Translations under genes and position numbers: made by a program | The notes under the pieces: model-generated | What the model saw: only the letters and a program-made list of their open reading frames with translations | The model's database searches: none | Told to the model about the DNA's origin: nothing | In this document: one piece after another, positions 1 to 22,530 of the stretch | How positions within the stretch are numbered: position 1 is the stretch's first letter | Layout: the number at the start of each line of letters is the position of its first letter | Origin: Candidatus Raymondbacteria bacterium RIFOXYA2_FULL_49_16 | GTDB taxonomy: Bacteria > Fibrobacterota > OXYB2-FULL-49-7 > XYB2-FULL-49-35 | Direction: 5' to 3' | Length of the DNA: 27,075 nt | NCBI GenBank assembly: GCA_001789205.1 | Contig: MFYT01000029.1 | Coordinates: 1-27,075 of the forward strand

Positions 1-48
1 GGGAGATCTGCAAGTCCGGTTCTGTGAGGGGCGTAAGGTGTCTCTCAT
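1..48 (+). ncRNA. Possible 3' end of a group II intron (domain V right strand and domain VI)
   Basis: The first 22 nt read like the 3' strand of a group II intron domain V, ending in the typical ..GTCCGGTTC. Immediately after it, 24-32 (GTGAGGGGC) pairs with 40-48 (GTCTCTCAT) over nine base pairs including G-U wobbles, with loop 33-39, as domain VI would. The expected left strand of domain V and the intron-encoded reverse transcriptase would lie outside the window. The bulged adenosine of domain VI is not obvious, and the exact 3' splice site cannot be placed (shortly after 48). If correct, an intron sits directly upstream of the methylaspartate operon on the same strand. This rests on recall of domain V/VI consensus plus visible pairing. 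Confidence 0.5.
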
Positions 49-78
49 GATAAATACATTTTATTGTAAGGAGATACT

Positions 79-1353
79 ATGACGCCTACTCGACAAATCA
101 GGAAGGCGGTTTTTTCAGCGGGAGTTTCCTCATTTTTCTTTGACGACCAACGGGCCATAAAAGAAGGGGCGATTCACGACGGATTTGTATACAAAGGCGC
201 GCCAATGACCGCGGGCTTTAAGAGTGTGCGCGTGGCCGGACAGAGCATATCCGTGAACCTGCTCCTGGAGGATGGAAGCCTGGCCGTTGGCGACTGCGCC
301 GCGGTCCAATATTCGGGCGCGGGCGGACGCGACCCCCTGTTCCTCGCCGAAGACTATCTTCCGTTCCTGGACAAGCATATCCGGCCCATGCTTGAAGGCA
401 TGGAAATAGCGCCATTCAGGGAAATGGCCGGCCGGTTCGAAACGCTCCATATCAAAGGGCAACGCCTGCACACAGCGGTCCGCTACGGCCTTTCGCAGGC
501 CCTCCTCGATGCGCGCGCACTGGCGCAACGGAAATTGAAATGCGAAGTCATCTGTGATGAATACGGTCTTCCCGTCCCGAGCAGGCGCGTGCCTATTTTC
601 GGGCAAAGCGGCGACAACCGGTACGAAAACGTGGACAAAATGATCCTGAAGAACATTGATGTATTGCCGCATGGCCTCATCAACAACATCGATGAAAAAC
701 TGGGGCGTACTGGTGAAAAACTGAAGGAGTATGTCCGCTGGCTGGTCAAACGAATAGCCGAACTGCGTACACGCGGTGATTACAGCCCTGTGCTGCATAT
801 CGACGTGTACGGCACCATAGGGACCATTTTCAACCTGGATACGGACCGGATTGCTGACTACCTTGCCTCGCTCGAGGACGATGCTGGCGGGCACAGTCTC
901 TATATTGAGGGCCCTGTTGACGCGGAAGAAAAATATCGCCAATTGGAAATACTGAAAAACATTCGCGATACCCTTAAAAAAAAGGGTTCGCGGGTTAAGA
1001 TTGTCGCGGACGAGTGGTGCAACACGTTCGAGGACGTGCGCGAGTTCACGGACGCGCGCGCGTGCGATATGGTCCAGATCAAGACGCCGGACCTGGGCGG
1101 CGTGCAGAACATCGTGGAAAGCGTCCTGTATTGCAAGGCGCACGGCATGGAGGCGTATCAGGGCGGCACGTGCAACGAGACCGATGTTTCCGCGCGCGCA
1201 TGCGCGCATATTGCCGTGGCCGCGCAGGCCGACCGCATGCTTGCCAAGCCCGGCATGGGTTTTGACGAGGGGTATATGATTGTGAACAATGAGATGGAGA
1301 GAATACTGGCAATAATACAATCACGGGGAACGCGCAATGAAAAAAATGACTGA
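79..1353 (+). CDS. mal: Methylaspartate ammonia-lyase (beta-methylaspartase, EC 4.3.1.2)
   Basis: Enolase-superfamily enzyme that eliminates ammonia from L-threo-3-methylaspartate to give mesaconate, the second step of glutamate fermentation after glutamate mutase; cytoplasmic. The protein (424 aa, family about 413) is collinear with the Clostridium tetanomorphum enzyme with an offset of four residues. His198 (VLPHG) and Lys335 (QIKTPD) match the catalytic His194/Lys331 pair. Asp242 (HIDVYG), Glu277 (YIEGP) and Asp311 (VADEW) match the three Mg ligands. Gln77, Gln176 and Thr364-Cys365 (GGTCNET) match substrate-binding positions. AAGGAG at 68-73 is ideally placed for the ATG at 79. The 3' end overlaps the next gene by 17 nt, so it heads an operon. 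A 396-residue antisense frame inside it is a GC shadow. Confidence 0.97.
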   Translation: MTPTRQIRKAVFSAGVSSFFFDDQRAIKEGAIHDGFVYKGAPMTAGFKSVRVAGQSISVNLLLEDGSLAVGDCAAVQYSGAGGRDPLFLAEDYLPFLDKHIRPMLEGMEIAPFREMAGRFETLHIKGQRLHTAVRYGLSQALLDARALAQRKLKCEVICDEYGLPVPSRRVPIFGQSGDNRYENVDKMILKNIDVLPHGLINNIDEKLGRTGEKLKEYVRWLVKRIAELRTRGDYSPVLHIDVYGTIGTIFNLDTDRIADYLASLEDDAGGHSLYIEGPVDAEEKYRQLEILKNIRDTLKKKGSRVKIVADEWCNTFEDVREFTDARACDMVQIKTPDLGGVQNIVESVLYCKAHGMEAYQGGTCNETDVSARACAHIAVAAQADRMLAKPGMGFDEGYMIVNNEMERILAIIQSRGTRNEKND

Positions 1354-2719
1354 ATTCCGCGTCTTGTCGCCCACGGCAATCCTGGGATACGGCTTCCCGG
1401 AGGCGTCGTTTATGCGGGGAATCAGACGCACACCGCACCTTATCGCCGTTGACGCGGGCTCCACAGACCCCGGGCCCTATTACCTGGGCGCGGGCAAATC
1501 ATTTACAAACAGGTCAAACGTGAAGCGCGATCTTTGTTTCATGCTGAAAGAAGGCGTGCGCCGGAACATTCCCGTGGTCATCGGCAGCGCGGGAGGAAGC
1601 GGGGCGCGGCCCCATGTGGATTGGTGCGTTGCAATCATCAGGGAAATAGCGCGGGAGGAAAAGCTTTCGTTTACCATGGGTGTCGTTTACGCCGACATTG
1701 CCAAGACAATGGTGCGGGCATACCTGCGAAAAAACAGGATTGTCCCGCTGGATTGCGTACCCAGGCTCACCAAAACGGTCCTGGACGAATCGGTGAATAT
1801 CGTGGCGCAAATGGGCATGGAGCCCATTCAGGCAGCATTGCGCAAAGGATGCGGCGTGGTCCTGTGCGGCCGCTGTTACGACCCCGCTGTTTTTGCCGCG
1901 CTGCCTGTACAACTTGGCTTTGACAAGGGCCTTGCGTTGCATATGGGAAAAATTCTCGAGTGCGCGGCCATTGCTGCAACACCCGGTTCGGGCGCGGATT
2001 GCGTGCTGGGGACGCTGAAACAGGGTTCCTTTGTGCTTGAGACGCTCAATCCCGCGCGTTCCTTTACCAAGGAATCCGCCGCGGCGCACACCTTGTACGA
2101 AAAATCAGACCCATACCACCTGCCCGGGCCAGGCGGCACCATAGACATTTCCGGATGTTCGTTCACCGAACTTCCAGGAGGCCGCGTGGAAGTCCGGGGG
2201 AGCCGGTATGTCCCTTCAGAGACATACTTTGTCAAACTCGAAGGCGTGCGTAGGACCGGATACAGGACCATATCCGTGGCAGGCACACGCGATCCGGTGA
2301 TGATTAAAAACATCGATTCCATTCTTGAAAGCGTCACTGTGCAGGTACGGCCCATGCTTAAACGTGAAAAAATACCCGGGAATGCGCGTTTTCATGTGTT
2401 CGGTAAAAACGCCATCATGGGCGACCGGGAGCCAATAAAAAAGACGGCAAGCCACGAACTGGGGATCGTGATTGACGCGGTTGCGGCAACGCAGGAATCC
2501 GCGGACACGCTGTGCAGCCTTATACGGTCCACGCTGCTGCACTATGGCTATCCAGGGCGTATTTCCACGGCCGGTAACCTTGCGTTTCCCTTTTCACCGT
2601 CCGATCTACGGGCCGGAGAAGTGTTCGAGTTTTCGGTCTATCACCTCATGCCCGTTGAAAAACAGGGGTTGTTCAAGTCAATTGTCCTCACCTGCGCGGG
2701 CCAAAGGAAAGCGCCATGA
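1337..2719 (+). CDS. AtuA-like (DUF1446) family protein of the methylaspartate operon
   Basis: 460 aa, cytoplasmic, no signal peptide. It matches the N-terminal AtuA/DUF1446 family, named for the acyclic terpene utilisation cluster, whose biochemical function is unknown. Visible family signatures are AVDAGSTDPGPYYLG (37-51), GSAGGSGARPHVDW (83-96), CGRCYDPAVFA (177-187) and YEKSDPYHLPGPGG (254-267). A homologue is commonly found beside methylaspartate ammonia-lyase (from memory). It overlaps the lyase gene by 17 nt and the next gene by ATGA, so translation is probably coupled. ATG 1346 (MTEFRV) is an alternative start; neither has a strong Shine-Dalgarno site. The context points to glutamate/methylaspartate metabolism rather than terpenes, but no reaction can be assigned. 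Confidence 0.85.
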   Translation: MKKMTEFRVLSPTAILGYGFPEASFMRGIRRTPHLIAVDAGSTDPGPYYLGAGKSFTNRSNVKRDLCFMLKEGVRRNIPVVIGSAGGSGARPHVDWCVAIIREIAREEKLSFTMGVVYADIAKTMVRAYLRKNRIVPLDCVPRLTKTVLDESVNIVAQMGMEPIQAALRKGCGVVLCGRCYDPAVFAALPVQLGFDKGLALHMGKILECAAIAATPGSGADCVLGTLKQGSFVLETLNPARSFTKESAAAHTLYEKSDPYHLPGPGGTIDISGCSFTELPGGRVEVRGSRYVPSETYFVKLEGVRRTGYRTISVAGTRDPVMIKNIDSILESVTVQVRPMLKREKIPGNARFHVFGKNAIMGDREPIKKTASHELGIVIDAVAATQESADTLCSLIRSTLLHYGYPGRISTAGNLAFPFSPSDLRAGEVFEFSVYHLMPVEKQGLFKSIVLTCAGQRKAP

Positions 2720-3030
2720 AAAAGACCTCCATTTTAAAGGCGGCCCGCGTCATCAGGTCCAAGAACTCCGGGCCGTATGAATTAACGTTTGATATCATTT
2801 TTAAGAATAAGCGATATTTTCATTTGTTCCGGAAAAGAAATATCATTACCAGGAAAAAGGTGGCAATGCTGTACAGGGCCAACGAGGACGATGTCCTGAA
2901 AATCATCTATTTCGAACCGGCGTACGCAATGAAAATCACCCTGAAACGGTGGATGCCTTCGGGTCATGCGGGTGAAAGCGACATCTATGGCGCCCAGCAG
3001 CATGCCCCGCTTCTGGGAATCACCTTTTAA
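2716..3030 (+). CDS. DUF4387 family protein, partner of the AtuA-like protein
   Basis: 104 aa. It matches the DUF4387 family, which is found next to, or fused to the C-terminus of, AtuA/DUF1446 proteins. Conserved features are the N-terminal AARVIRSKNSGPYELTFDI (9-27), a central EDDVLKIIYFEPAYAMKIT and the C-terminal DIYGAQQHAPLLGI. The ATG overlaps the TGA of the AtuA-like gene (ATGA, 2716-2719), the arrangement expected for two subunits made in equal amounts. It probably forms a complex with the AtuA-like protein, because fused versions exist. The molecular role is unknown. Confidence 0.85.
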   Translation: MKKTSILKAARVIRSKNSGPYELTFDIIFKNKRYFHLFRKRNIITRKKVAMLYRANEDDVLKIIYFEPAYAMKITLKRWMPSGHAGESDIYGAQQHAPLLGITF

Positions 3031-3040
3031 GAGGGCGCCT

Positions 3041-4012
3041 ATGCCTCATCTCAAGGACAGCTCCGGCCAATCAAACGCACGCTGGTTTACGCACCACGAA
3101 ACCCTGGTCTACGCCGTGTATTACGCACCGCGGGGGCGTTTGCGGTTGTACCGGGTGGCGGGTGAGATTTCACAGAAGTATCTGTCGCCGACCGATCTTC
3201 TGATAGGCATTATCGGCGCTGAAGGATCCGGAAAATCCACATTCATCAAAGGACTCTTTCCCGGCCTTGAGCTCACCAACGACGACGACGGCATCAACAT
3301 ACGGTCCGCGCCGCTTTTTTCCTTTTGTCCCGAGGACCATTTCTCGGGCCATACGTTCCATATCGACGTCCGGTTCGAACTGGCCTTCCGTCAGCATTTC
3401 GAGATCGCGGAGGCGATCAACAAGGCCCTTGCGCACAGAAGGCGCGTCATTGTCGAGCATTTCGACCTGCTCTATGATTGCCTTGGTTACAACGCGCAGG
3501 TGATTTTCGGCATCGGCGAGGAGATCATTGTAGCGCGGCCAACGGTTTTTGGGCCTTTCCCTAAGCGCATCAAATCCATTGTGGACAAAACCATCAAATA
3601 CCGTCTCATGGCCCATTCGGCGGAGGATATCACGGCATATATCCTTGAAAAGGACTATCATTATAGCTATCCGGTCATACATTCCGACGTAAAGCACGGT
3701 TTTGTCATCAATTTCACTGAAAAACCGGACATTGACCTGGCGGAGCTGGAGCGCAAGGTGCTGGATATCATTGCGCGCGACGTCCCCATCTGCCCGGCTG
3801 GAGAGGACCGCATCAATATCGGCGAAGCCGTATTGTCGTGCACTGGCACGCGAACGCATGTGAAATCTTCCGGTCAAATTGAGAATTTCCGCCTTCTTCA
3901 AAACTTCAAATACGATCCCATCTCAAAGGAGTATTTGGTGGTCGGCATTGTGGGGAAAAACGAACCAGCCGGATTTGAGGAAATGACAGACGTTTCTGAT
4001 TTTACGACATGA
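3041..4012 (+). CDS. P-loop ATP-binding protein conserved in methylaspartate operons, function unknown
   Basis: 323 aa from the ATG at 3041, preceded by GAGGGCGCCT; an in-frame start at 2966 lies inside the DUF4387 gene and is unlikely. A Walker A motif GAEGSGKST lies at 59-67, and VIVEHFDLLY (136-145) may act as Walker B. Further conserved-looking stretches are LELTNDDDGINIR (76-88), GIGEEIIVARPTVFGP (157-172), IKYRLMAHSAEDIT (185-198) and HSDVKHGF (214-221). Relatives in clostridial and spirochaete genomes near glutamate mutase and methylaspartase genes are, as I recall, annotated 'alanine-tRNA synthetase second additional domain-containing protein'; that name is uninformative. A P-loop phosphotransferase or NTP-dependent chaperone for a pathway enzyme is possible. 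The family link is fairly secure, the function is not. Confidence 0.75.
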   Translation: MPHLKDSSGQSNARWFTHHETLVYAVYYAPRGRLRLYRVAGEISQKYLSPTDLLIGIIGAEGSGKSTFIKGLFPGLELTNDDDGINIRSAPLFSFCPEDHFSGHTFHIDVRFELAFRQHFEIAEAINKALAHRRRVIVEHFDLLYDCLGYNAQVIFGIGEEIIVARPTVFGPFPKRIKSIVDKTIKYRLMAHSAEDITAYILEKDYHYSYPVIHSDVKHGFVINFTEKPDIDLAELERKVLDIIARDVPICPAGEDRINIGEAVLSCTGTRTHVKSSGQIENFRLLQNFKYDPISKEYLVVGIVGKNEPAGFEEMTDVSDFTT

Positions 4013-4028
4013 TAACATCGGCTGAACC

Positions 4029-5621
4029 ATGACGATTTTCAACGGCATATTCCCGGGACCCGGCGCAGACAAAACGCGCTACCGTCTTCTCACGAAACAG
4101 CACGTAAAAACAAGAAAGTGGAACGGCCGCACATACCTGTTTGTGGAACCCGCGGGCCTTTCCCTGCTTGCGGCGGAAGCTTTTTCCGATGGCTCCTTTT
4201 TTTTACGCGCATCGTACCTTGCGCAGCTTGCCGCCATAGGCAAGGACACAGGAGCCTCCGACAATGATCGTTTTGTAGCGCGCGCGCTGTTGAAAAACGC
4301 GGTCATTGCAGCGGAAGGCGTGCTGCCATTATGCCAAGACACAGGCACAGCGACCATTATCGCTTTTAAAGGAGAGGCTGTTCAGACAGGGGATGATGAC
4401 GTACAGGCGCTATCGCGCGGCGTTTTTAAAGCATACACGGAAAATAATCTCCGCTATTCGCACATGGCGCCGCTTTCACTTTTTGACGAAGTCAACACCG
4501 GATGCAATCTGCCCGCACAGATCGACATCGCGTCCGTGCTAGGCAATGAATACCGTTTTCTTTGCATGGCCAAAGGCGGCGGTTCATCGAATAAGACCGC
4601 TTTGTTCCAGGAAACCAAGGCGCTTTTAAACAAGACGTCTTTTGCCGCTTTTTTAAAAGAGAAGATCAAGGCGCTTGGCGTTGCCGCCTGCCCTCCCTAT
4701 CATATTGCGGTTGTTGTGGGAGGCACTTCGCCTGAGATGTGCCTGAAGACCGTTAAACTCGCATTGACAGGACATCTCGACAATCTTCCGTTAAAAGGAA
4801 ACAAGCGAGGCAGCGCCTTTCGCGACCGTTTTTGGGAGAAGCAGGTCCTTGCCATTGCCCGGGAAACAGGGTTGGGTGCGCAATTCGGCGGAACATACCT
4901 GGCGCTCGATGCGCGCGTTATCCGGTTGCCGCGCCACGCAGGGTCGTGTCCTATTGGGTTGGGCGTGAGTTGCAATGCGGACAGAAACATCAAGGCCAAA
5001 ATAACCAAGCAAGGGATTTTTTTGGAAGCGCTTGAGAAAAACCCCTCGCGTTATTTTGCATCTGTTCCCTTTTCTTCAGCCAAAGAACCGGTCCCCGTGG
5101 ATTTGAACAAGCCCATGGCCGCGATTTTAAAGCAGCTTGCAGCCTGTCCGGCTGGGACTCTTGTATCCTTGTCAGGACCGCTCATTGTTGCGCGCGACAG
5201 CGCGCATGCACGGATTAAAAATATTTTAGACAAAACAGGAGACATACCGGAATACTTTAAACAACACCCGGTATATTACGCGGGACCGGCAAAAACCCCC
5301 AAAGGGATGATTTCCGGCAGTTTTGGCCCAACAACCGCATTGCGCATGGACGCGTATGTACCTTCTTTCATGAAACAAGGGGCGTCGCTGGTCTCTCTTG
5401 CAAAAGGCAATCGGGCCGCTACGGTGACCGAAGCGTGCAAAACATACGGCGGCTTCTATTTAGGGACAATCGGCGGCGCGGCCGCGCTCATTGCCCGCGA
5501 AAACATAGTAAAAACGGAAATTATCGATTTTGCGGACCTTGGCATGGAAGCCATACGCAGGATAACCGTAAAAGACCTGCCCGCTTTCATTCTTATCAAC
5601 AGCCGCGGGTGTACTGCCTAA
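4029..5621 (+). CDS. Class I fumarase-family Fe-S hydro-lyase, probable mesaconase (2-methylmalate dehydratase)
   Basis: 530 aa, single chain with both the N-terminal Fe-S domain and the C-terminal domain, like E. coli FumA/FumB (548 aa). Candidate 4Fe-4S ligands are Cys102 (LCQDTGT), Cys221 (ACPPYHIA) and Cys307 (AGSCPIG). Family blocks FLCMAKGGGSSNKT, LGAQFGG, RLPRHAGSCPIG, YYAGPAKTPKGM, GSFGPTTALRMD and GGFYLGTIGGAAA are all present. Class I members hydrate fumarate, mesaconate or both. Here the gene ends an operon begun by methylaspartate ammonia-lyase, whose product is mesaconate, so hydration of mesaconate to (S)-citramalate is the likely main reaction. Fumarase activity remains possible. 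It starts 16 nt after the preceding gene with no strong Shine-Dalgarno site. The enzyme is expected to be oxygen-sensitive, consistent with anaerobic life. Confidence 0.9.
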   Translation: MTIFNGIFPGPGADKTRYRLLTKQHVKTRKWNGRTYLFVEPAGLSLLAAEAFSDGSFFLRASYLAQLAAIGKDTGASDNDRFVARALLKNAVIAAEGVLPLCQDTGTATIIAFKGEAVQTGDDDVQALSRGVFKAYTENNLRYSHMAPLSLFDEVNTGCNLPAQIDIASVLGNEYRFLCMAKGGGSSNKTALFQETKALLNKTSFAAFLKEKIKALGVAACPPYHIAVVVGGTSPEMCLKTVKLALTGHLDNLPLKGNKRGSAFRDRFWEKQVLAIARETGLGAQFGGTYLALDARVIRLPRHAGSCPIGLGVSCNADRNIKAKITKQGIFLEALEKNPSRYFASVPFSSAKEPVPVDLNKPMAAILKQLAACPAGTLVSLSGPLIVARDSAHARIKNILDKTGDIPEYFKQHPVYYAGPAKTPKGMISGSFGPTTALRMDAYVPSFMKQGASLVSLAKGNRAATVTEACKTYGGFYLGTIGGAAALIARENIVKTEIIDFADLGMEAIRRITVKDLPAFILINSRGCTA

Positions 5622-5724: not shown

Positions 5725-6289
5725 TTATCGTAGAAGACATGCAGTGAGAAAATCGTAATAAGCCGGCAGATCTATCCAATCGAGTGCGACCTGGGCTGGC
5801 CGGGCATGTTCATCCTGGACCGTAAAACCATCATCCGTTACCCGCACATTCATATTTTTCATGGACAAGTATCGCGTGGAAAAGGCCAGGTAGACCGCCA
5901 CGGTGTCATAAAGGATCGAGGTTCGTTTGTTCACTTCGTCCAGCGTGACGCCCACGTTTGACGCCCAGATGCGGTAGTTTTCCATTACCGTCCGGATCAG
6001 GGTGTCCTTCGAATTCCGTATTGCCGCATAACGGGTCCCGTCCAGCCGGATAACGCCGCAGGTGTCCAGCGGGGTAATCGTAAACGAGCGCCATGGAGCG
6101 GCAAACACTTTTTGCGCTGCTGAAATGTTTTTCACTACATTCCATTCGGCAATAGCGCCTTCTTTGCCATCATGATTGCGGCAAACACTTCCGAACATGC
6201 CGACAAAGCAATGCCATGGCCAAGGCCCACGTATCGTCAATATCCCCCACAATATCAGTGTACAGGATCACGGGAATTGGTGTTTTTTA
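5725..6289 (-). pseudogene. Nucleoside hydrolase remnant with a large internal deletion and frame change
   Basis: Reading the minus strand, one frame (about 6289-6205) gives PVILYTDIVGDIDDTWAL, the N-terminal Ca-binding signature of inosine-uridine nucleoside hydrolases. It runs straight into a second frame giving FVGMFGSV, AEWNVVKN, APWRSFTITPLDTCG, MENYRIWAS, LYDTVAVYLAF and RVTDDGFT, which is the C-terminal half. The middle of the family (roughly 130 residues, from memory of the usual ~300-350 aa length) is missing, and the two halves are out of frame. A TAA lies just upstream of the N-terminal block and no good start is seen. The longest open frame (5725-6252) therefore starts artificially. 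An intact enzyme would hydrolyse ribonucleosides to base and ribose; this copy should be inactive. Confidence 0.85.
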
Positions 6290-6326: not shown

Positions 6327-6420
6327 TGATTCACTTAATGCGCCCAACAGGACGTATTTGCTTGGAAATGGGGCATCTGAATTGGGTAAGGCGGACCCAA
6401 TAGCTCCGAATCCCAGCCGG

Positions 6421-6732
6421 TTTTTGTGGAAGAAATTATTCCATGCGCTCCTGACGCGGAAATATGTCAAAGGCCGCGATTGGTACGATTTTCAGTGGTA
6501 TCTCACCAAATTCAGGGATCTTGAGCCGAATTTCGCCATGTTGAACAATGCGCTCCAACAGACAGGATGGACCAGCGGCGAGATCAACAACGCCAACTGG
6601 AAAGAACGTGTTCGACACGTAATCGCGGCCCTTGATATGAAAAAGATCCGTGATGATGTTTTCAGATTCCTGGAAGACGAGCGTGAGGCAGACCTCCTGA
6701 CAAAAGAGAATCTGCTTCGCCTGGTGTCCTGA
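6421..6732 (+). pseudogene. 5'-truncated AbiEii-type nucleotidyltransferase toxin remnant
   Basis: The last ~100 codons resemble the C-terminal end of AbiEii/AbiGii-type nucleotidyltransferase toxins: KLFHALLTRKYVKGRDWYDF followed by QWYLTKF, PNFAMLNNALQQTGW and a helical tail ending in LLTKENLLRLVS. The N-terminal catalytic half with its GS...D motifs is absent, and so is any AbiEi-type antitoxin. The open frame can be extended back to a TTG at 6358, but that part shows no family similarity. It is a remnant of an abortive-infection/toxin-antitoxin gene, lying 27 nt from and convergent with the ferredoxin gene. It is probably non-functional. Confidence 0.75.
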
Positions 6733-6759: not shown

Positions 6760-7620
6760 TTACACCCACGCTTCGCTTTTAATGTCTCCTTTTATGCCCA
6801 CGACTACTGCTTTAATGGGTATCTTGCGTTTTGCCTTGGAGGCCGCCTCTTGGGCCAGACCAAGCAGGCCTCTGCAGCAGGGCACTTCCATGATCATGAC
6901 CGTGAGCGTATTGATCTGCGCCTCGTCTATGAGTGCAGTGATTTTTTCAGAATAGACCTCCTGGCCTTCGTCAAGCTTTGGACAGGCAATGGCGAGCGCT
7001 TTGCCTTTTAAAAAGTCCTTGTGGAAATCGCCCATGGCATAAGCAACACAATCTGCCGAAAGCACTACATCGCGGCCCTTGAAATGGGGAGACATGGGCG
7101 CGATAAGATGAAGCTGGACAGGCCAGTGTGAAAGCTGGGAAGGACGTTTTCCCTCTTCATCTCCGGCAGCAGGGGCATGCTCGTCCCTCGACAGGTCCAT
7201 TGCGCGTGAGCCCGGGCATCCGCCTGTGGCGTGTTCATGAGCGTGTGCCATTGGTTTCTCCTTTTTTTCACCAGGTATGGGTATATTTTTTCCTTTTAAA
7301 ACCGCGATTGCGATATTGTAAAATTCAGTCTGTCCATGGCTTTTCAGATGCTCAAGATGGGCCTTGATAGTATTGTCACCCTGTTTCACGATGTTCTCCA
7401 TGACCTTGCGTTCGTCATAAGGTTCGGCCTCGCGTACCTCGGTGGTAATGGCGCCTTCGGGGCAGTGGCCAAGGCAGGCACCCAGGCCATCGCAGAAGAG
7501 ATCGCTGATGAGCCGTGCCTTACCGTCGATCATCTGGATGGCGCCTTCAGGACAGTTTGGGATGCAGAGGCCGCAGCCAGTGCATTTGTCCTGATCAATC
7601 GTAATTATGCTTCGTTTCAT
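6760..7620 (-). CDS. 4Fe-4S ferredoxin-type protein with conserved C-terminal domain
   Basis: 286 aa. The N-terminus carries a classic 4Fe-4S motif, Cys13-Cys16-Cys19 followed by Cys23-Pro (CTGCGLCIPNCP), and a second, variant motif with Cys43, Cys49 and Cys53 (CDGLGACLGHCP). A charged, His-rich linker (about 120-165) precedes a conserved C-terminal domain with LSADCVAYAMGDFHKDFLKGK, split as LSADCVAYA and GDFHKDFLKGK, then IACPKLDEG and MEVPCCRGL. This architecture is a recognised anaerobe family of unknown partner, probably an electron-transfer or redox-sensing protein in the cytoplasm. It lies 106 nt downstream of the aminotransferase gene on the same strand, so the two may be cotranscribed; a direct functional link is not evident. 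Confidence 0.85.
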   Translation of the reverse strand: MKRSIITIDQDKCTGCGLCIPNCPEGAIQMIDGKARLISDLFCDGLGACLGHCPEGAITTEVREAEPYDERKVMENIVKQGDNTIKAHLEHLKSHGQTEFYNIAIAVLKGKNIPIPGEKKEKPMAHAHEHATGGCPGSRAMDLSRDEHAPAAGDEEGKRPSQLSHWPVQLHLIAPMSPHFKGRDVVLSADCVAYAMGDFHKDFLKGKALAIACPKLDEGQEVYSEKITALIDEAQINTLTVMIMEVPCCRGLLGLAQEAASKAKRKIPIKAVVVGIKGDIKSEAWV

Positions 7621-7726
7621 GGTTCCTCGCTTTCTCTTTTAATAATATACGGATAAAACAGGAAGAAAACCTTGATGCAGATCAAGAAATTGGCGATTCT
7701 TTTGCAGAATTATAAAATTCAGACCT

Positions 7727-8872
7727 TTATTTCAGGCCAGACAACCGTTTTGCAGCCTCGTGAAGCGTTGATTCCTGTTTGGCAAAACAGAACCGTATAA
7801 CTCTGTTGTCTGTTGCTTTGTGATAAAACGCGGACACTGGAATGGCGGCAACGCCAAAGTCGCGCGCCAGCCGCAGGGCAAAGTCTCGGTCTGATTCCTG
7901 GCTGAAATGGCCGAATTTGTAGCACTCAAAATAGCTGCCGTGTGACGGCACCAATTTGAGCGGCGTGTGTTTGAGTAGTTGGCGGAAAAGATCCCGCTTC
8001 TTTTGCATGGCTGGTCCAAGGGTCTGATAGGGCTCAACCCTGTCCAGATATGCTGCCAAGCCCACTTGTTTGGGCGCATCACAAGAGAAGCAGTTGAACT
8101 GGTGTACTTTGCGGAATTCGTGCATGAGCTTTTTTGGCGCCACGCAATATCCCAGCTTCCAACCAGTGCAGCTATAGGTTTTTCCAAAGGAGTAGCAGAC
8201 AAGGCTTCTGTTAAAAAGATCAGGATACCGCAGCATGCTTGTATGCGGCAGACCGTCATAGATCAGGTGTTCATATACCTCATCGCTGACAATGAAGATG
8301 CCGGTGTGTGCGACCAGATCGCGCAGTGCTGCGATGTCTGCATCCCGGAGAACGCTGCCCGTGGGATTGTGTGGGGAGTTTATAATAATAACCCGTGTGT
8401 GTTTTGAAATCCGTTTGCCAACCTCGTCCCAGGGTATGGTATAGCCGGGGAAGCGCATGGCAATTGGGATTGCCTTTGCTCCGTTCAGTTCAATGTTAGG
8501 AATATAACTGTCATAGGCAGGCTCAAAGACAATGACCTCATCGCCGCGCCTCAGTATCGATGTCAGTGCCGTGTATATGGCATATGTGCCGCCTGGTGTA
8601 ATGGTGATTTCAGATTCAGGACTGACAGTTGCTCCATAGAGCAGATGGAACTTTGCGCAGAGTTTTTCCAGCAGGGGCGCGTAGCCGTTCATGTGCGCAT
8701 ACTGGTTGTGGCCCTGCTTCATGGCATTGTTCACCAGGGATATGAGTTCGGGCGCCATATCAAAATCCGGGAAACCCTGGCCAAGATTGATCGCCTTGTG
8801 CGCAGCAGCCACGCGGTTCATCTCCGTAAAGATGGTCGTCGGGATATCGGGGAGTTTGGGAGTAAAGTCCAT
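7727..8872 (-). CDS. PLP-dependent class I/II aminotransferase, YbdL-type (methionine aminotransferase)
   Basis: 381 aa, fold type I aminotransferase, cytoplasmic. It aligns along its whole length with E. coli YbdL, which transaminates methionine and aromatic or branched amino acids with 2-oxo acids. Visible blocks are KLPDIPTTIFTEM (6-18), INLGQGFPDFD (28-38), NQYAHMNG, FEPAYDSY (116-123), SPHNPTG (166-172, Asn169), SDEVYEH (196-202, Asp197 bonding the PLP ring nitrogen), SFGKTY with the Schiff-base Lys231, GWKLGYCVAP and a carboxylate-binding Arg360 (VIRFCFAK). The ATG at 8872 lacks an obvious Shine-Dalgarno site but is where family similarity starts. Kynurenine- or glutamine-transaminase activity is an alternative. 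Confidence 0.92.
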   Translation of the reverse strand: MDFTPKLPDIPTTIFTEMNRVAAAHKAINLGQGFPDFDMAPELISLVNNAMKQGHNQYAHMNGYAPLLEKLCAKFHLLYGATVSPESEITITPGGTYAIYTALTSILRRGDEVIVFEPAYDSYIPNIELNGAKAIPIAMRFPGYTIPWDEVGKRISKHTRVIIINSPHNPTGSVLRDADIAALRDLVAHTGIFIVSDEVYEHLIYDGLPHTSMLRYPDLFNRSLVCYSFGKTYSCTGWKLGYCVAPKKLMHEFRKVHQFNCFSCDAPKQVGLAAYLDRVEPYQTLGPAMQKKRDLFRQLLKHTPLKLVPSHGSYFECYKFGHFSQESDRDFALRLARDFGVAAIPVSAFYHKATDNRVIRFCFAKQESTLHEAAKRLSGLK

Positions 8873-9024
8873 GCGAAGAAAAATAACCCATCCGGTTCCC
8901 TAAAACAAGCCTGCCTTGCCAAGAGTCCGCTTCACAGACGACTCTGCAGTCTGACATTTTTGTCATACAAAAGTACTCTGGCACCTTGGTTTTGATAAAA
9001 TTGTCATGGTTTCATCATTGGGGT

Positions 9025-9061
9025 CCGGTTTTTCCCGGTATTTTTCCCGGCACTGTTTTTG
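9025..9061 (+). promoter_or_regulatory. Pyrimidine-rich upstream element (candidate promoter/regulatory motif)
   Basis: The 235-nt gap between the divergent aminotransferase and VIT-domain genes holds CGGTTTTTC, then ATTTTTC, then CACTGTTTTTG, ending about 47 nt before the ATG at 9108. Closely similar arrangements occur before the isoaspartyl peptidase gene (20763-20784) and the ceramidase-like gene (26181-26210). It could be a promoter or operator. No function is proven. The rest of the gap shows nothing else I can name apart from the AAGGAGGAGAT Shine-Dalgarno site. Confidence 0.3.
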
Positions 9062-9107
9062 CATTACTCAGTGGTGTCAACCGCAACAACCCATATAAGG
9101 AGGAGAT

Positions 9108-11375
9108 ATGTCACGACCTGTTCTTGCTTTGTTCATGTGTCTTGCAATCCTGGCCATTTCAGTTTTCGGGTATTTCCCGGTTTCCAAGATCCTTCCCATG
9201 GAAAACCGGTACCGGAACCTGGATTATTATCCTAATTATTCACCTGCCTGCACTCTGAATCTTGCATTGAACAGCCGCGGCGCCTCAGGTTATTTGGACG
9301 CGCATTTTACCGCACCCGTGTCCGGAATGGGCCTGTCCGACAGTTGTGAGGTGCTGTCCGTGCTCTGTCTTCCCCGGCATTTTTCCGTGGATTCCATGGT
9401 CCTGTGGGTGAACAATGAACCCCAGCCAGCCAGACTTCTTTCCATTGGCCAGGCCGAGGCTACATACGATAATATCGTCTATGTCACCCGCCAAGACCCG
9501 GCATATGTGCGCAGAATCAACGGCTATCCCGATAACTACGGATTCTATCCTTACCGGCCCTATGAGAACCAGTTCGAAGTCAAGATCTACCCCTGCGTGC
9601 TTGGTCAATCGCGCCATGTGCGGATTTTCCTGGACTGCCATGCCGATATTTCTGCGGGATTTTCCACCATTGACCTGGGGCATCCCATGGGTTCTGTGGT
9701 GCGGATCAATACACAGTCCAATGTCACGGCTATTCCAACCGTAAACAGGGGTGTGCTTTCGTTATTTTCAACACAAGATCGGATCGGCTATCAGATAACC
9801 GAAACAGACACTCACTCGCTTGTTTTTACCACAGGTTCAGTTCAGGCCCCGGTATCGGGATGCGCGGGCGTGGTACAGACTGTTGATTCAGGGGCTAACT
9901 ACTTCAAACTTCAGCTTGATCTTGCCAAGCTGTTCAACCTCGATCAGCTTGCGCAGAGACGTAAGGTCACCTTTGTATGGGTGCCGAGCAGTTCACTGAA
10001 GACAAGCGCCATTAATTATTATGAAGAGGAAAAAGACCTGATATCCAACTATATCGCTGGTTTCAAAGTGCAGGAATATTTGAATTTTGTTTATGCCGGA
10101 GATCAGGTCGAGATGTTTGAGCCGCATATGGTCGCTGCCGGCGCAAATGTTATTACGCGCGCACAGTCGTTTCTTTCTTCCCGCATAGACCCTGAACAGC
10201 GTTCGCTCTACACGCGCACCTTTCCCGCTCTGGTCAAGGCATTCTCATCGATTGCCTCTTCCGACACTCCCGCGGTTGTTTTCTGCATGGATCGCGAGCC
10301 TGCCATGATCGGAGGCCCTGCTTCGGACAATGCGCGGTTAGACAGTATGAAGAATGTGCTGGTGCAGATCAATGTAAACAAAACCAAATTCTACGCATGG
10401 GTGCACTGGTCAAAGGCGTTTTTCTATTCCCGTGTTGCCTCGGCTTTGAACGGTTCGATTTCCTGGTATGACCCATCGGCTGGATATCATAGCCCGTATA
10501 CAACCAGCGCAACGTATGATTTTACCTTCATCGACAGGGCGTTCGGACCCGGGCCCTCTATTTCCAGCCATCAGATACGGCTCGATGACAACTGCTTCAA
10601 TGTCATTACCAGCAGGCAGATCAGCGGATATGATCTCCCGGGGCCAAATCCCTGTACCCGGATCGACCTTCTGGGGCAGTGCAGCGCAGGATACCTTTCA
10701 GGCACGGTCACGGCAAGCATTGGCGGCCAACTCTATGAAAGGCCCTTTATCGTAACGAGCAGCGGCAACACTGCAACAGGGCTGAATCTTGACAAGCTGT
10801 GGGCCTTTGACATGGTGGAGGTTTTTGCCGAGGACCAGACTTTTTTCTCATGGGCGCCGCGCCGCAGCTACACATTGAGCAATTCCCTGCCCGAATTCAA
10901 CCTTTCCGGAACCATCCTGCGTACTGCCGATACGTATAGGAAAATGGTCGAAATCAGCCTGCAGAACCAGGTGGTGACGGGCGCGTCTGCGCTGCTGGCA
11001 TTGGAACCAGGCATGGAATATCTCGATACCGACCGGTTCGACGATCAGGAGTCTGGACCTTTGACAGCGATCGAAACTGCACCCGCAAAGGCGGATTCAC
11101 TCAAGGCCAGTCTTGTGGCTTCACCCAATCCTTTCAACCCGACAACGAACATAGCGCTTGTGTGCGGCAACTTTACCGGCATGGCCGCAGTGTATGTATA
11201 TGATGCTACCGGCAGGCTGGTCCATATTCATAAAGCCATGCCTATAAATGGAAGAGTGGCCTTTACCTTTAACGCACGCGATAGCCACGGCATGCGTCTG
11301 GCCAGCGGCGTATACATGATCAAGGCTGTGTTTGGGAACAGGTGCCTGCAAACCAAGGCGATGCTTTTAAAATAG
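9108..11375 (+). CDS. Secreted VIT-domain protein with C-terminal sorting (FlgD-Ig/type IX) domain
   Basis: 755 aa. It has a signal peptide (residues 1-21, hydrophobic core LALFMCLAILAISVFG). Residues about 80-180 resemble the vault/inter-alpha-trypsin (VIT) domain: the block QAEATYDNIVYVTRQDPAYV, then NQFEVKIYPC and a basic-hydrophobic strand. The middle (about 190-640) is of unclear fold; I see no MIDAS-type DxSxS motif, so a von Willebrand A domain is not supported. The last ~90 residues form a sorting/FlgD-like Ig domain: LVASPNPFNPTTNIAL, VYVYDATGRLV, LASGVYMIKA and a terminal KAMLLK. It is expected to be exported and displayed or released at the surface. AAGGAGGAGAT immediately precedes the ATG. 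It appears monocistronic. Confidence 0.85.
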   Translation: MSRPVLALFMCLAILAISVFGYFPVSKILPMENRYRNLDYYPNYSPACTLNLALNSRGASGYLDAHFTAPVSGMGLSDSCEVLSVLCLPRHFSVDSMVLWVNNEPQPARLLSIGQAEATYDNIVYVTRQDPAYVRRINGYPDNYGFYPYRPYENQFEVKIYPCVLGQSRHVRIFLDCHADISAGFSTIDLGHPMGSVVRINTQSNVTAIPTVNRGVLSLFSTQDRIGYQITETDTHSLVFTTGSVQAPVSGCAGVVQTVDSGANYFKLQLDLAKLFNLDQLAQRRKVTFVWVPSSSLKTSAINYYEEEKDLISNYIAGFKVQEYLNFVYAGDQVEMFEPHMVAAGANVITRAQSFLSSRIDPEQRSLYTRTFPALVKAFSSIASSDTPAVVFCMDREPAMIGGPASDNARLDSMKNVLVQINVNKTKFYAWVHWSKAFFYSRVASALNGSISWYDPSAGYHSPYTTSATYDFTFIDRAFGPGPSISSHQIRLDDNCFNVITSRQISGYDLPGPNPCTRIDLLGQCSAGYLSGTVTASIGGQLYERPFIVTSSGNTATGLNLDKLWAFDMVEVFAEDQTFFSWAPRRSYTLSNSLPEFNLSGTILRTADTYRKMVEISLQNQVVTGASALLALEPGMEYLDTDRFDDQESGPLTAIETAPAKADSLKASLVASPNPFNPTTNIALVCGNFTGMAAVYVYDATGRLVHIHKAMPINGRVAFTFNARDSHGMRLASGVYMIKAVFGNRCLQTKAMLLK

Positions 11376-11425
11376 TATCATGTATACGGGAAGGCAAGGC
11401 GCCATTGGTGCGCCTTGCCAGGCCC

Positions 11426-11540
11426 ACTGATACTGATAAGCATTCTAATTTTCTGGTTCGTGTAATTTCCCGATCCTTCATACAGGGCGAATTCCCGCCT
11501 GTTCTGCCCGCTTCGCTCTCTCGATGCGAGGCGGGCCGGA
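11426..11540 (+). repeat. Dispersed repeat, copy 1
   Basis: The copy starts with ACTGATACTGATAAG (11426-11440) and contains the conserved core CAGGGCGAATTCCCGCCT from 11483. A stem follows: GCCCGCTTCGC (11506-11516) pairs with GCGAGGCGGGC (11526-11536) across a nine-base loop, 11 pairs with one G-T wobble. It is shared, in the same orientation, with copies at 13103 and 16671. It lies 50 nt after the stop of the VIT-domain gene and upstream of the DUF4143 ATPase. Confidence 0.85.
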
Positions 11541-11805
11541 GCGTTAATTGTCGTATGATGGCAGGTTCTCAAAGACGGTATGCTTCAACAGACTCAGCAC
11601 ATGTAGTCGGGTAGAGGATCTTCGATGGATGGAGGCTTATCACATATTTCCGAGGGTGACACCCAAACATGGCGTTCTTGTTTTATGTCGCCAAAAGGTG
11701 TAAATTTTATCAATTATTAACACTGAAAGCGTGATTTTTTATATCGTAATATGGCTAATTCATATTTTATTTTGATATTTGCCATAATTTATATATTTTA
11801 TATGT
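11541..11805. other. Intergenic stretch, AT-rich toward the ATPase
   Basis: No gene can be supported here. The first part is of mixed composition with no recognised motif. From about 11690 to 11805 it becomes very AT-rich and runs into a GTG start with no clear Shine-Dalgarno site, so it probably holds the ATPase promoter. Confidence 0.6.
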
Positions 11806-13107
11806 GTGAAGCGTGACCTAATAACGAATCTGGAAAAGTGGAAAAACTCGCCTACCCGGAAACCCTTGATACTTCAGGGTGCAAGGCAAGTCGGGAAAAC
11901 ATTTCTCCTTAAAGAATTTGGAAAAACAAATTTTGATTCCTGTATTTATCTTAATTTTGATGCCGATGAAACTCTGGATACTATTTTTAATGGTACCCAT
12001 AAGATTTCAGACATCATTGATCTCATTGGTATACGGGAAGAAAAGAAGATTATTCCAGGCAAAACATTATTGATTTTCGATGAAGTCCAATTCCAGGAGT
12101 ATGCGCTTAATTCCTTGAAATACTTTCAAGAAAATGCCCCGGAATATCATATAGTCGCAGCAGGGTCGCTGCTGGGTATCTCCTTATCAGGGAAAAAATC
12201 TTTTCCTGTTGGCAAAGTAAACTTTATGACCCTGCATCCCATGAATTTTCTGGAATTTCTGACCGCGCTTTCCAAAACCTCCCTGCGCGAATTCCTGGAC
12301 AATAAAAAAGACTATTCTGATATTCCTGATGTTTTGCATCGTGAGCTGACTAGTCTGCTGAAAATCTATACCTTTATTGGGGGCATGCCTGAAGCTGTTT
12401 CCGTTTATCTGCAGACCCACGATTTGATTGAAGTCAGAAAGATCCAGAACGAAATCCTGAGTTCCCAGCGCAAGGATTTTGCACGGCATGCGTCAAAAGC
12501 TGACGCCATCAAAATAAACCAGATTCTCGATTCCATTCCACTGCAACTGGCCAAGGAAAACAAAAAATTTGTCTTTTCAGCGGTCAAAGGCAGTGCTCGT
12601 TCCCGTGACTACGAAACAGCCATGCAGTGGCTGCTTGATGCAGGTCTTATTCATAAAGTCACATGCGTTTCTAGGCCACTGCTTCCATTGGACGCCTATC
12701 TTACTGCTGCATTTAAAATCTACTTTTTCGATACGGGGCTGCTCGCTGCAATGGTCAACCTGAGTCAACAAACCCTTATTGGGGAAAGCGATATATTTAT
12801 TCATTTCAAAGGCTCCATGACTGAAAATCTAGCCGTTCAAGCACTCATCCCAACTCATGAACGGTTGTATTATTGGAGGAGCGAAGGCCAGGCAGAGATT
12901 GATTTTATTTTATCTGTCGAGGATAAGATTGTCCCCATTGAGATAAAATCCGGCACCAGTGTTAAGAGCAAAAGCCTGGGCATTTATGCAGATAAGTTCT
13001 CGCCTGCCACTCTGCTCCGGGCAAGCCTGAAAAATTTCAGCCATCATGGGATCACGATAGAAATTCCTTTATATGCGCTTATAAAAGTGCATAGCTTTTT
13101 AAACTGA
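11806..13107 (+). CDS. AAA+ ATPase with DUF4143 domain
   Basis: 433 aa. The N-terminal AAA_14-type ATPase has Walker A GARQVGKT (25-32) and Walker B LLIFDEVQ (88-95, Asp92-Glu93), followed by AAGSLLGISL, the usual sensor region. The C-terminal DUF4143 part includes IYTFIGGMPEAV, KIYFFDTGLLAAM and a final nuclease-like block YYWRSEGQAEIDFI...VPIEIKSG, which has the D-(x)n-ExK spacing of PD-(D/E)XK folds. This is a very widespread family of solitary, horizontally mobile ATPases with no established role. Translation must begin at GTG 11806, because ATG 11802 runs into a stop at once. The gene is more AT-rich than the operons to either side and lies between direct repeats at 11426 and 13103, suggesting acquisition as a unit. 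Confidence 0.9.
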   Translation: MKRDLITNLEKWKNSPTRKPLILQGARQVGKTFLLKEFGKTNFDSCIYLNFDADETLDTIFNGTHKISDIIDLIGIREEKKIIPGKTLLIFDEVQFQEYALNSLKYFQENAPEYHIVAAGSLLGISLSGKKSFPVGKVNFMTLHPMNFLEFLTALSKTSLREFLDNKKDYSDIPDVLHRELTSLLKIYTFIGGMPEAVSVYLQTHDLIEVRKIQNEILSSQRKDFARHASKADAIKINQILDSIPLQLAKENKKFVFSAVKGSARSRDYETAMQWLLDAGLIHKVTCVSRPLLPLDAYLTAAFKIYFFDTGLLAAMVNLSQQTLIGESDIFIHFKGSMTENLAVQALIPTHERLYYWRSEGQAEIDFILSVEDKIVPIEIKSGTSVKSKSLGIYADKFSPATLLRASLKNFSHHGITIEIPLYALIKVHSFLN

Positions 13108-13256
13108 TACTGATAAGTCTTTGCTTTTCGAGTTCGCGGGATCGCTGATGGGGTGATGCAGGGCGCATTCCCGCCTATTCGGCCCGCTTCGCTCTCGCGA
13201 TGCGGGTTCCCGGTTTTAGTCTTCCGGGTCGAAAAAATATCGATTTCACGCTGCCC
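13103..13256 (+). repeat. Dispersed repeat, copy 2
   Basis: It begins with ACTGATACTGATAAG (13103-13117), so it overlaps the last codons and stop of the ATPase gene. The core CAGGGCGCATTCCCGCCT starts at 13159, followed by GGCCCGCTTCGCTCTCGCG. The right arm of the hairpin seen in copy 1 is lost (GCGGGTTCCC instead of GCGAGGCGGGC). The distal part, CCCGGTTTT and GTCTTCC then AAAATACCC, is shared with copy 3. It abuts the stop codon of the minus-strand propeller gene. Confidence 0.8.
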
Positions 13257-14000
13257 TTAGATAAAATACCCAAGCCCCAGCCAGATGACACCATTCTCTG
13301 CCGGTTGTATGCACTTAAAATCGGTGATGGAATCACCCCAGGACGTCACAAACGGATATTGATAAATCGAATCATCATGTCCGATCCTGGTGAAAGCGTC
13401 CCAATTTGCAGTGCCGCCAACAACCCAGACATTCCCATTTGTGTCCCCTAGCATATCGACCGGCAATATTGGGAAATAGTGATTTACATAAACAACCGTA
13501 TCATTGACAATTTTCTGTATGCCAAGACCAAAGTTCGGATTAACCACCCACAAGGATTTGTCGGCTGCAATGGCCATGTTGGCGATAAACGAATTAAAAA
13601 TACCGGAATTTTGCGGGGTAAGGCGTTTGCACGAACCGTCCCTGCTGTCAAAACGGATGAGGCCTGAATCCGTGATACACCAAAGAAGGTTGCTGTCTAT
13701 TGCCTCGATCCGTTTGATTTTGTTTGTGGGCAGTTCGGAATTTTCTTTGTTGAACACCTGCCATACGGTGTCTGAAATATGCACGGCCATGCCAGCGCAA
13801 TTGACAGTATCTCCATATGATTGCTGGAATGTGGTCCAGATGCGGTCCGCGCTGTCCAGAGCAATATGCACATAAGTGTCAGGAGTGCAGTTATCGATTG
13901 TTGGTTTGTGCATGCGCCAGCCTGGCGCAACTGCGGCAAATGCCTGCACGCCAAACAGCAGCAATAGAAACAGAAGTGTCCGCATCATAATTGGCCTCAT
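13257..14000 (-). CDS. Exported beta-propeller protein (two-component-regulator propeller type), probably 3'-truncated
   Basis: 247 aa with a signal peptide (core LLFLLLLFGVQAFA). Repeated units of the Reg_prop/propeller kind are visible: IALDSADRIWTTF, IEAIDSNLLWCITDSGLIRFDS, MAIAADKSLWVVN, DTNGNVWVVG and PAENGVIWLGLG. Only about five blades are present, and the frame ends right at repeat copy 2, so the gene has probably lost its 3' end; full propellers have more blades. Its ATG overlaps the stop of the lipoprotein gene (ATGA, 14000-13997), so it is the last gene of the minus-strand RHS unit. A periplasmic or surface binding role is likely; the ligand is unknown. Confidence 0.75.
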   Translation of the reverse strand: MRPIMMRTLLFLLLLFGVQAFAAVAPGWRMHKPTIDNCTPDTYVHIALDSADRIWTTFQQSYGDTVNCAGMAVHISDTVWQVFNKENSELPTNKIKRIEAIDSNLLWCITDSGLIRFDSRDGSCKRLTPQNSGIFNSFIANMAIAADKSLWVVNPNFGLGIQKIVNDTVVYVNHYFPILPVDMLGDTNGNVWVVGGTANWDAFTRIGHDDSIYQYPFVTSWGDSITDFKCIQPAENGVIWLGLGYFI

Positions 14001-20784: not shown

Positions 20785-20851
20785 ATCATAATACCAGAGA
20801 CACGAAATCTTTTTTTCTGTATACTTAAAATTGTTTAAGAAGGAGAAATAC

Positions 20852-21739
20852 ATGGATCCAGTCATCATTGTTCATGGCGGAGCATTCAAGCTCCTTGATG
20901 AGGAATTTGTTCCATCGGAACAGGGAGTACGCCAGTCTGCGCAGGCTGGGATGGCTGTACTTAGCCTGGGCGGTTCGGCAATCGATGCGGTCGAAGCAGC
21001 AGTGCGCGCAATGGAGGCTAACCCGATATTCAACGCAGGCCTGGGAGCGTCACTCACACGCGACGGGAAACTGGAAGTCGACGCTTCCATTATGGACGGA
21101 AGAACGAAAAAATTTGGGGCAGTCGCCTGCGTCCCTGATTTCATGCATCCTGTGTCGCTTGCCCGTGCGGTCATGGAGGACGGGGAACACGCGCTTCTGG
21201 GAGGCCCTGGCGCGCTTGCATTTGCATCTGAAAAAGGTCTTTCGCACTTTCACCGCACAGACCTTGTGACCGAAGGGGCTTTGAAGCGGTTGAAAAGGAT
21301 CAGGTCCGAGAGGGCGGACACTGTGGGTGCGTGCGCACTCGACAGCAGGGGAGAACTTGGCGTGGCCATTTCCACAGGCGGAAAGACCAACAAGCGGTCA
21401 GGCCGGATAGGCGACACGCCAATTATCGGCGCGGGTTTTTACGTTGACAACAGCGTGGGCGCTGCAGGAGCCACGGGTGATGGCGAGGCCATAATGCGGG
21501 CCCTTTTATGCTATCGGGCAACAATGTTTTTGAAAGAGGGGCTATCGTGCGGCAGCGCTGCGCGGGAATCCGTATCCATGCTTGATCGCGAAACAGGGAA
21601 GAAGTGCGGTATTATCATGCTTTCTCCGTCAGGCGAAACCGGCTTGTATCATAACACGCCGCATATGCCATGGGCCATTGCCTCAGCGGGAACAGGTGTA
21701 AAGAGCGGGATCTCCAGTGAAAAGAGCGTTCTGCCATGA
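20852..21739 (+). CDS. iaaA: Isoaspartyl peptidase / plant-type L-asparaginase (Ntn hydrolase)
   Basis: 295 aa from ATG 20852, chosen because GAAGGAGA precedes it; an upstream TTG at 20831 is unlikely. The precursor self-cleaves before the nucleophile Thr157 (ADTVGACALD), leaving alpha and beta subunits. Family residues Thr175 (STGGKTNKR), Arg185 (GRIGDTP) and Thr208-Gly209-Asp210 (GATGDGE) are present, as are N-terminal IIVHGGA, GGSAIDAVEAA and FNAGLGA. It hydrolyses beta-aspartyl dipeptides from damaged proteins, and L-asparagine, giving aspartate. No export signal. It is the first gene of a three-gene operon with the racemase (4-nt overlap) and MFS transporter. It is slightly shorter than E. 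coli IaaA (321 aa), mostly in the linker before Thr157. Confidence 0.93.
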   Translation: MDPVIIVHGGAFKLLDEEFVPSEQGVRQSAQAGMAVLSLGGSAIDAVEAAVRAMEANPIFNAGLGASLTRDGKLEVDASIMDGRTKKFGAVACVPDFMHPVSLARAVMEDGEHALLGGPGALAFASEKGLSHFHRTDLVTEGALKRLKRIRSERADTVGACALDSRGELGVAISTGGKTNKRSGRIGDTPIIGAGFYVDNSVGAAGATGDGEAIMRALLCYRATMFLKEGLSCGSAARESVSMLDRETGKKCGIIMLSPSGETGLYHNTPHMPWAIASAGTGVKSGISSEKSVLP

Positions 21740-22521: not shown

Positions 22522-22530
22522 GATGCGCCC

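Follow-up and report, generated by a model that had tools for sequence, protein, structure and literature searches.

A predicted glutamate-fermentation operon with CmlAB-type citramalate lyase genes and a conserved accessory protein uniting TsaE-like and editing-type folds

The closest described systems are an enterobacterial gene island, a clostridial gene cluster and a pair of proteins of solved structure. The enterobacterial island has the gene order glmS-glmL-glmE-mal-DUF1446-DUF4387-gltP-fumD-cobA (PMC4682846). Kronen et al. 2015 (PMC4682846) characterized FumD of this enterobacterial-type cluster as a mesaconase, noted that a protein without known function, DUF1446, is encoded after mal, and did not settle what becomes of citramalate. 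The clostridial methylaspartate cluster has GntR, glmS-glmL-glmE and mal genes and cleaves citramalate with an ACP-bearing lyase, CitDEF. The solved proteins (PDB 9ERQ and 9EVF) carry molecule names that identify them as subunits of a citramalate lyase; our use of the name CmlAB follows these PDB names together with genomic context, a literature search for CmlAB papers having found none.

The window analyzed here, a stretch of 27,075 nucleotides, is an entire contig (C29) of a 5.4 Mb genome assembled in 112 contigs. We conclude that it very probably carries the downstream half of a methylaspartate-pathway glutamate fermentation operon with CmlAB, split over two contigs, a confidence that covers the operon and the CmlAB assignment and not the role of the P-loop protein also encoded there. 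The operon is of a known pathway kind, and its new element is this conserved, undescribed accessory protein. With the enterobacterial island it would have in common the core order glmSLE-mal-cmlAB and a mesaconase of the class I fumarase type, but here a P-loop gene separates cmlB from the fumarase gene, a GntR gene would lie upstream, and there is no adjoining transporter, glutaminase or cobA gene. The GntR, glmS-glmL-glmE and mal genes are common to the clostridial cluster, as is the P-loop gene in Peptoclostridium and Pelosinus, whereas citramalate cleavage would be by CmlAB rather than by the unrelated CitDEF lyase. The solved CmlAB proteins have the same two subunits (AtuA, 456 aa; DUF4387, 105 aa), encoded by adjacent genes with shared pathway neighbors, but their E. 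coli relatives are found in an operon that has no P-loop gene.

A probable methylaspartate-pathway operon on two contigs

Five co-directional genes on the plus strand are packed into positions 79-5621: mal (3-methylaspartate ammonia-lyase, 79..1353), an AtuA/DUF1446 gene (1337..2719), a DUF4387 gene (2716..3030), the P-loop gene (3041..4012) and a gene for a class I (iron-sulfur) fumarase-type hydro-lyase (4029..5621). The tight five-gene operon of the preliminary description was borne out, with overlaps of 17 nt (mal/AtuA) and 4 nt (AtuA/DUF4387) followed by gaps of 10 nt (DUF4387 to P-loop) and 16 nt (P-loop to fumarase). The mechanically called P-loop start, ATG 2966, lies inside the DUF4387 gene and was dropped in favor of ATG 3041, which fits the N-termini of the family. 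Neighborhood mapping found the identical gene order again in dozens of loci across many phyla, and thus the arrangement is not due to chance.

The first and last genes can be assigned with little difficulty. Mal matches MAAL_N/C and TIGR01502 (584.8 bits for TIGR01502, cut-off 286) and aligns with PDB 1kko (E=2.6e-179). The active site of the Clostridium tetanomorphum enzyme, which we take to consist of Q73, Q172, H194, D238, E273, D307, Q329, K331, T360 and C361, is kept in full in the window protein at an offset of +4. The hydro-lyase is a single chain that matches Fumerase and Fumerase_C (238 and 225 bits) and PDB 5l2r (E=1.3e-178), and in this alignment the three cysteines expected to bind the [4Fe-4S] cluster are present as C102, C221 and C315. 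Hence the view that the catalytic residues of the lyase and the cysteines of the hydro-lyase are intact was upheld. The hydro-lyase shares 55% identity with the class I fumarase encoded in the glm-mal-cml cluster of E. coli and is probably the mesaconase, its preference for mesaconate over fumarate being a prediction from homology and gene context.

Because the window is a whole contig, the 5' part of the operon is missing from it. The glutamate mutase half, which lay outside the view of the preliminary description, was found at the end of contig C1, where GntR, glmS, glmL and glmE occupy the terminal 4.4 kb, glmE stopping 83 bp short of the contig end. The order glmS-glmL-glmE is that which precedes mal in the loci of other genomes. 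The full operon would therefore read GntR-glmS-glmL-glmE on C1 followed by mal-cmlA-cmlB-(TsaE/SAD protein)-mesaconase on C29.

The window begins 78 bp before mal, apparently within group II intron sequence. A probable 3' remnant of such an intron (domain V, truncated where the contig starts; 1..60, plus strand) lies just upstream of mal; the RF00029 match spans window positions 1-94 and is 5'-truncated by the contig end (E=4e-4, 29.9 bits against a gathering score of 40), and over bases 1-33 the window has 91% identity to a stretch located 30 bp downstream of a group II intron ltrA gene in Rhizobium etli. The intron remnant likely caused the assembly break at the window start, and we infer that C1 and C29 are neighbors with a group II intron between them. 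Comparison of the ends of C1 and C29 for overlap found no shared sequence. Group II introns begin with GTGCG, and the C1 tail after glmE (10401-10486 of locus L092) opens with GTGCG in the manner of a group II intron. Searches with this tail as an intron 5' end found no match in Rfam or among plasmid and viral sequences, and its alignment to the Rhizobium intron was no better than those of shuffled sequences. Among 167 genomes of the phylum, DUF4387, a P-loop protein of full length and a glutamate mutase E match above the cut-off were each found in this one alone, a distribution consistent with acquisition by transfer.

Two gene remnants follow directly downstream of the operon, a truncated nucleoside hydrolase (5725-6252, minus strand) and a C-terminal fragment of AbiEii (6358-6732, plus strand).

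The AtuA and DUF4387 proteins and citramalate cleavage

In Pfam the two proteins encoded after mal match AtuA (PF07287, 77 bits) and DUF4387 (PF14330, 124.6 bits). In the PDB, the AtuA protein aligns over 432 aa at about 60% identity and E=2.8e-176 with 9erq_A/9evf, which bears the name "Citramalate lyase, subunit A (cmlA)". For the DUF4387 protein the match, at 47% identity and E=1.3e-26, is 9erq_B, named "Citramalate lyase, subunit B (cmlB)". Both products of these adjacent genes are full-length homologues of 9ERQ chains A and B. The 9ERQ proteins in turn have close counterparts in E. coli, with identities of 91% to the AtuA protein and 84% to the DUF4387 protein encoded in a glmS-glmL-glmE-mal-AtuA-DUF4387-transporter-fumarase-cobO cluster. 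Given these matches, AtuA and DUF4387 are best read as the two subunits of a recently recognized citramalate lyase, which would supply the known last step of the pathway, in which citramalate is split into acetate and pyruvate.

With this assignment a complete route is well supported by homology and context. Glutamate mutase would convert glutamate to 3-methylaspartate, Mal would deaminate 3-methylaspartate to mesaconate and ammonia, the iron-sulfur hydro-lyase would hydrate mesaconate to (S)-citramalate, and CmlA plus CmlB would cleave citramalate to acetate and pyruvate. CmlAB would thereby close a gap in the literature, namely how organisms having mal and a mesaconase but no citrate-lyase genes finish glutamate fermentation.

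An argument for CmlAB that is independent of the structural matches came from the neighborhoods of the P-loop gene. From 443 relatives found, we took 80 loci that encode the P-loop protein and mapped their neighbors. Among the 58 loci having at least 6.5 kb of upstream sequence, mal and glmE were both present in 50. Next to mal and the P-loop gene the operon has a slot that held cmlAB in 40 of these 58 loci and citDEF/C genes of the citrate-lyase type in seven, all with glm/mal genes. In two further loci, both planctomycete and with glm/mal genes, an ATP-grasp/CoA-ligase pair and then an HpcH/HpaI (CitE-like) lyase lie between mal and the P-loop gene. These succinyl-CoA-ligase-like pairs and CitE-like lyases, which replace cmlAB in the mal operon (L057, 5879-8888; L042, 5292-8959), are a probable ATP-dependent citramalyl-CoA route. 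Thus, three unrelated modules, each predicted to be able to cleave citramalate, replace one another while the remaining operon stays much alike, and occupation of the same slot elsewhere by CitDEF-type genes or by the CoA-ligase/CitE-like module gives the CmlAB assignment its independent support.

The preliminary description had reasoned that three proteins beyond Mal and the hydro-lyase imply an undescribed step. On such a reading AtuA and DUF4387 might form an activation or chaperone pair or another enzyme, for example one acting on acyl-CoA or terpenoid acids. The Pfam name AtuA does stand for acyclic terpene utilization, and cmlAB-like pairs are also present in catabolic clusters that lack mal, with a fumarase gene in Neorhizobium and with dehydrogenase and fumarase genes on Klebsiella plasmids. 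However, class I fumarase is retained even in these mal-less clusters, AtuA is about 60% identical over its full length to a PDB protein named as citramalate lyase, and other citramalate-cleaving modules take the same operon position in other organisms. A function of this pair in some other, undescribed step is therefore very improbable, and the reasoning from three extra proteins fails for AtuA and DUF4387; it may stand for the P-loop protein alone. The mal-less cmlAB and fumarase-type genes lie at 7001-10210 of the Neorhizobium locus (L094) and at 6986-13473 of a Klebsiella plasmid locus (L095), and such pairs beside other catabolic genes probably serve other C5 acids.

Distribution and folds of the P-loop protein

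The co-occurrence with mal that the preliminary description had proposed as a check was found both for DUF4387 and for the P-loop protein. Using 75 mal-containing genomes from evenly drawn samples of two other phyla, and 80 mal-lacking controls taken from the same samples in numerical order rather than at random, we found DUF4387 in 55 of the mal-containing genomes, and the P-loop protein in 57 of them and in five controls (Fisher p=2e-20, uncorrected for relatedness). The genes were mostly near mal: in 42 of the 57 genomes the P-loop gene lay within 10 kb of it. Nine mal-containing genomes had the P-loop protein without DUF4387, and of 12 genomes with no mal in the stretch retrieved around the P-loop locus, eight had mal elsewhere. 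As the P-loop protein accompanies three unrelated citramalate-cleavage modules, it is a pathway accessory rather than part of one lyase, and its occurrence with CitDEF and with the CoA-ligase/CitE-like module ruled out a CmlAB-specific factor. It was missing from the enterobacterial clusters and from 18 of the 75 mal-containing genomes and hence is not essential. The protein thus tracks the chemistry of glutamate mutase and Mal, to which it would be helpful without being indispensable.

A few P-loop loci stand apart. The protein was found with mal undetected in rumen Riflebacteria, an Elusimicrobium and an incomplete Desulfosporosinus MAG (L069, L070, L027 and L088). The neighbors of such orphan loci (methyltransferase, acyltransferase, RNase PH, MatE) showed no common theme.

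No Pfam or NCBIfam family matched the P-loop protein above cut-off. An AlphaFold2 model built with 48 homologues (pLDDT 86.5, pTM 0.83) gave TsaE/YjeE (E about 5e-5) and AlaX-M as the top Foldseek matches, and the two matches resolved into two domains. Residues about 21-173 have a TsaE-like fold (VIA-align Z 10.5 to YdiB/TsaE over 126 residues), whereas residues about 183-310 have the SAD fold of editing domains (Z 14.3 to AlaRS and Z 14.1 to AlaX-M, with about 123 residues aligned at an rmsd of 2.6-2.7). Profile comparison by hhalign matched the C-domain to the AlaRS/ThrRS SAD (prob 96.5%, E=8e-10); against PDB sequences the C-domain profile gave weak matches only, ThrRS among them. The N-half matched TsaE weakly by profile comparison (prob 33%, E=5e-4). 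With the TsaE family PF02367 the window protein scored 15.3 bits, under the cut-off of 26.6, and 41 of 48 members had weak matches (best E=2.6e-5). A kinase or uridine-kinase identity, raised by weak matches to proteins of about 550 aa in three genomes and by NCBIfam traces, was rejected, the fold search having given a TsaE-type result.

In the N-half the Walker A residues G59, G62, G64, K65 and S66, H107 and D109 (HxD) and E139 are invariant in the 48 aligned members, as are H192, E195, D196, H214, C267, R271 and H273 in the C-half. The editing metal motif is altered, being H192xxxD196 plus C267x5H273 in place of the HxxxH...CxxxH of AlaX, and in a Prevotella member the motif positions are further changed, to E for D and Q for H. 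According to the model the protein appears to share the folds of TsaE/YjeE, the t6A ATPase, and of the AlaX/AlaRS/ThrRS SAD, one in each half, but it differs from both families in having the two fused in one chain, in falling below Pfam cut-offs and in its metal motif. Owing to that motif we have not filed it as a member of either family. Separate TsaE, AlaRS and ThrRS genes are present in the same genome.

Candidate roles of the P-loop protein

The metabolites common to the operons that bear the P-loop gene are 3-methylaspartate, mesaconate and citramalate. The methylaspartate pathway would generate large amounts of an aspartate-like amino acid that does not belong in proteins, and an editing factor might then be carried as a standard accessory in many phyla. 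The editing-type fold, the conserved arginine beside the metal motif and an ATPase fold related to a tRNA-modification factor together suggest hydrolysis of methylaspartyl-tRNA. Within the operon and CmlAB account we therefore favor, weakly and at well under even likelihood, a metal-dependent hydrolase, driven by ATP, that would strip tRNA of mis-esterified 3-methylaspartate or some other pathway acid. Whether the domain is a hydrolase at all is uncertain given the altered editing motif and its further change in Prevotella, and a literature search for mischarging of tRNA with methylaspartate found nothing. Taken further, as a proposal that the TsaE-SAD protein is a new ATP-dependent translation quality-control factor clearing tRNAs that carry 3-methylaspartate or a pathway compound related to it, the idea is distinctly speculative. 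If the editing idea were true, this fused protein would connect the fermentation of amino acids with quality control of tRNA.

Next in rank, and itself somewhat unlikely, is an ATP-dependent maintenance factor that matures or reactivates a pathway enzyme, acting either as a partner of GlmL, as TsaE does for TsaD/TsaB, or on the iron-sulfur mesaconase. TsaE works with ASKHA-fold partners, and GlmL, an ASKHA-type ATPase, is encoded in the same operon as the TsaE-like protein. For the mesaconase, the fumarase/mesaconase gene directly follows the P-loop gene in 41 of the 49 loci that hold both, and in Holophagales loci the P-loop gene is found with mesA(B) and no adjacent mal. However, two planctomycete loci (L039 and L042) have glmS and glmE side by side with glmL not detected and yet keep the P-loop gene, while the enterobacterial clusters have glmL and fumarase genes but no P-loop gene. 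An obligate GlmL partner is disfavored on these grounds, and a maintenance role of either kind would leave the conserved editing-fold domain unexplained.

The altered motif, more so in Prevotella, could also indicate that the editing-type domain is catalytically dead and that the protein is a regulator sensing a pathway amino acid or acid, and degenerate SAD-fold domains do occur in non-enzymes, a mitoribosomal protein being among the fold matches. We rank this third and consider it unlikely, because none of H192, D196, C267, R271 and H273 varies among the 48 aligned members, which suggests a working site, and the operon already has a GntR regulator. Removal of pathway acids from tRNA is the preferred, if tentative, role.

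Elsewhere in the window, a further acidic amino-acid cluster at 20831-23841 (plus strand) has genes for an Asparaginase_2 protein of the isoaspartyl-peptidase type, an Asp/Glu racemase and an MFS transporter in one run. Two large proteins encoded on the plus strand at 9108-11375 and 23929-26142 have SPNPFNP-type tails, the second being a metallophosphoesterase with a Por_Secre_tail sorting domain.
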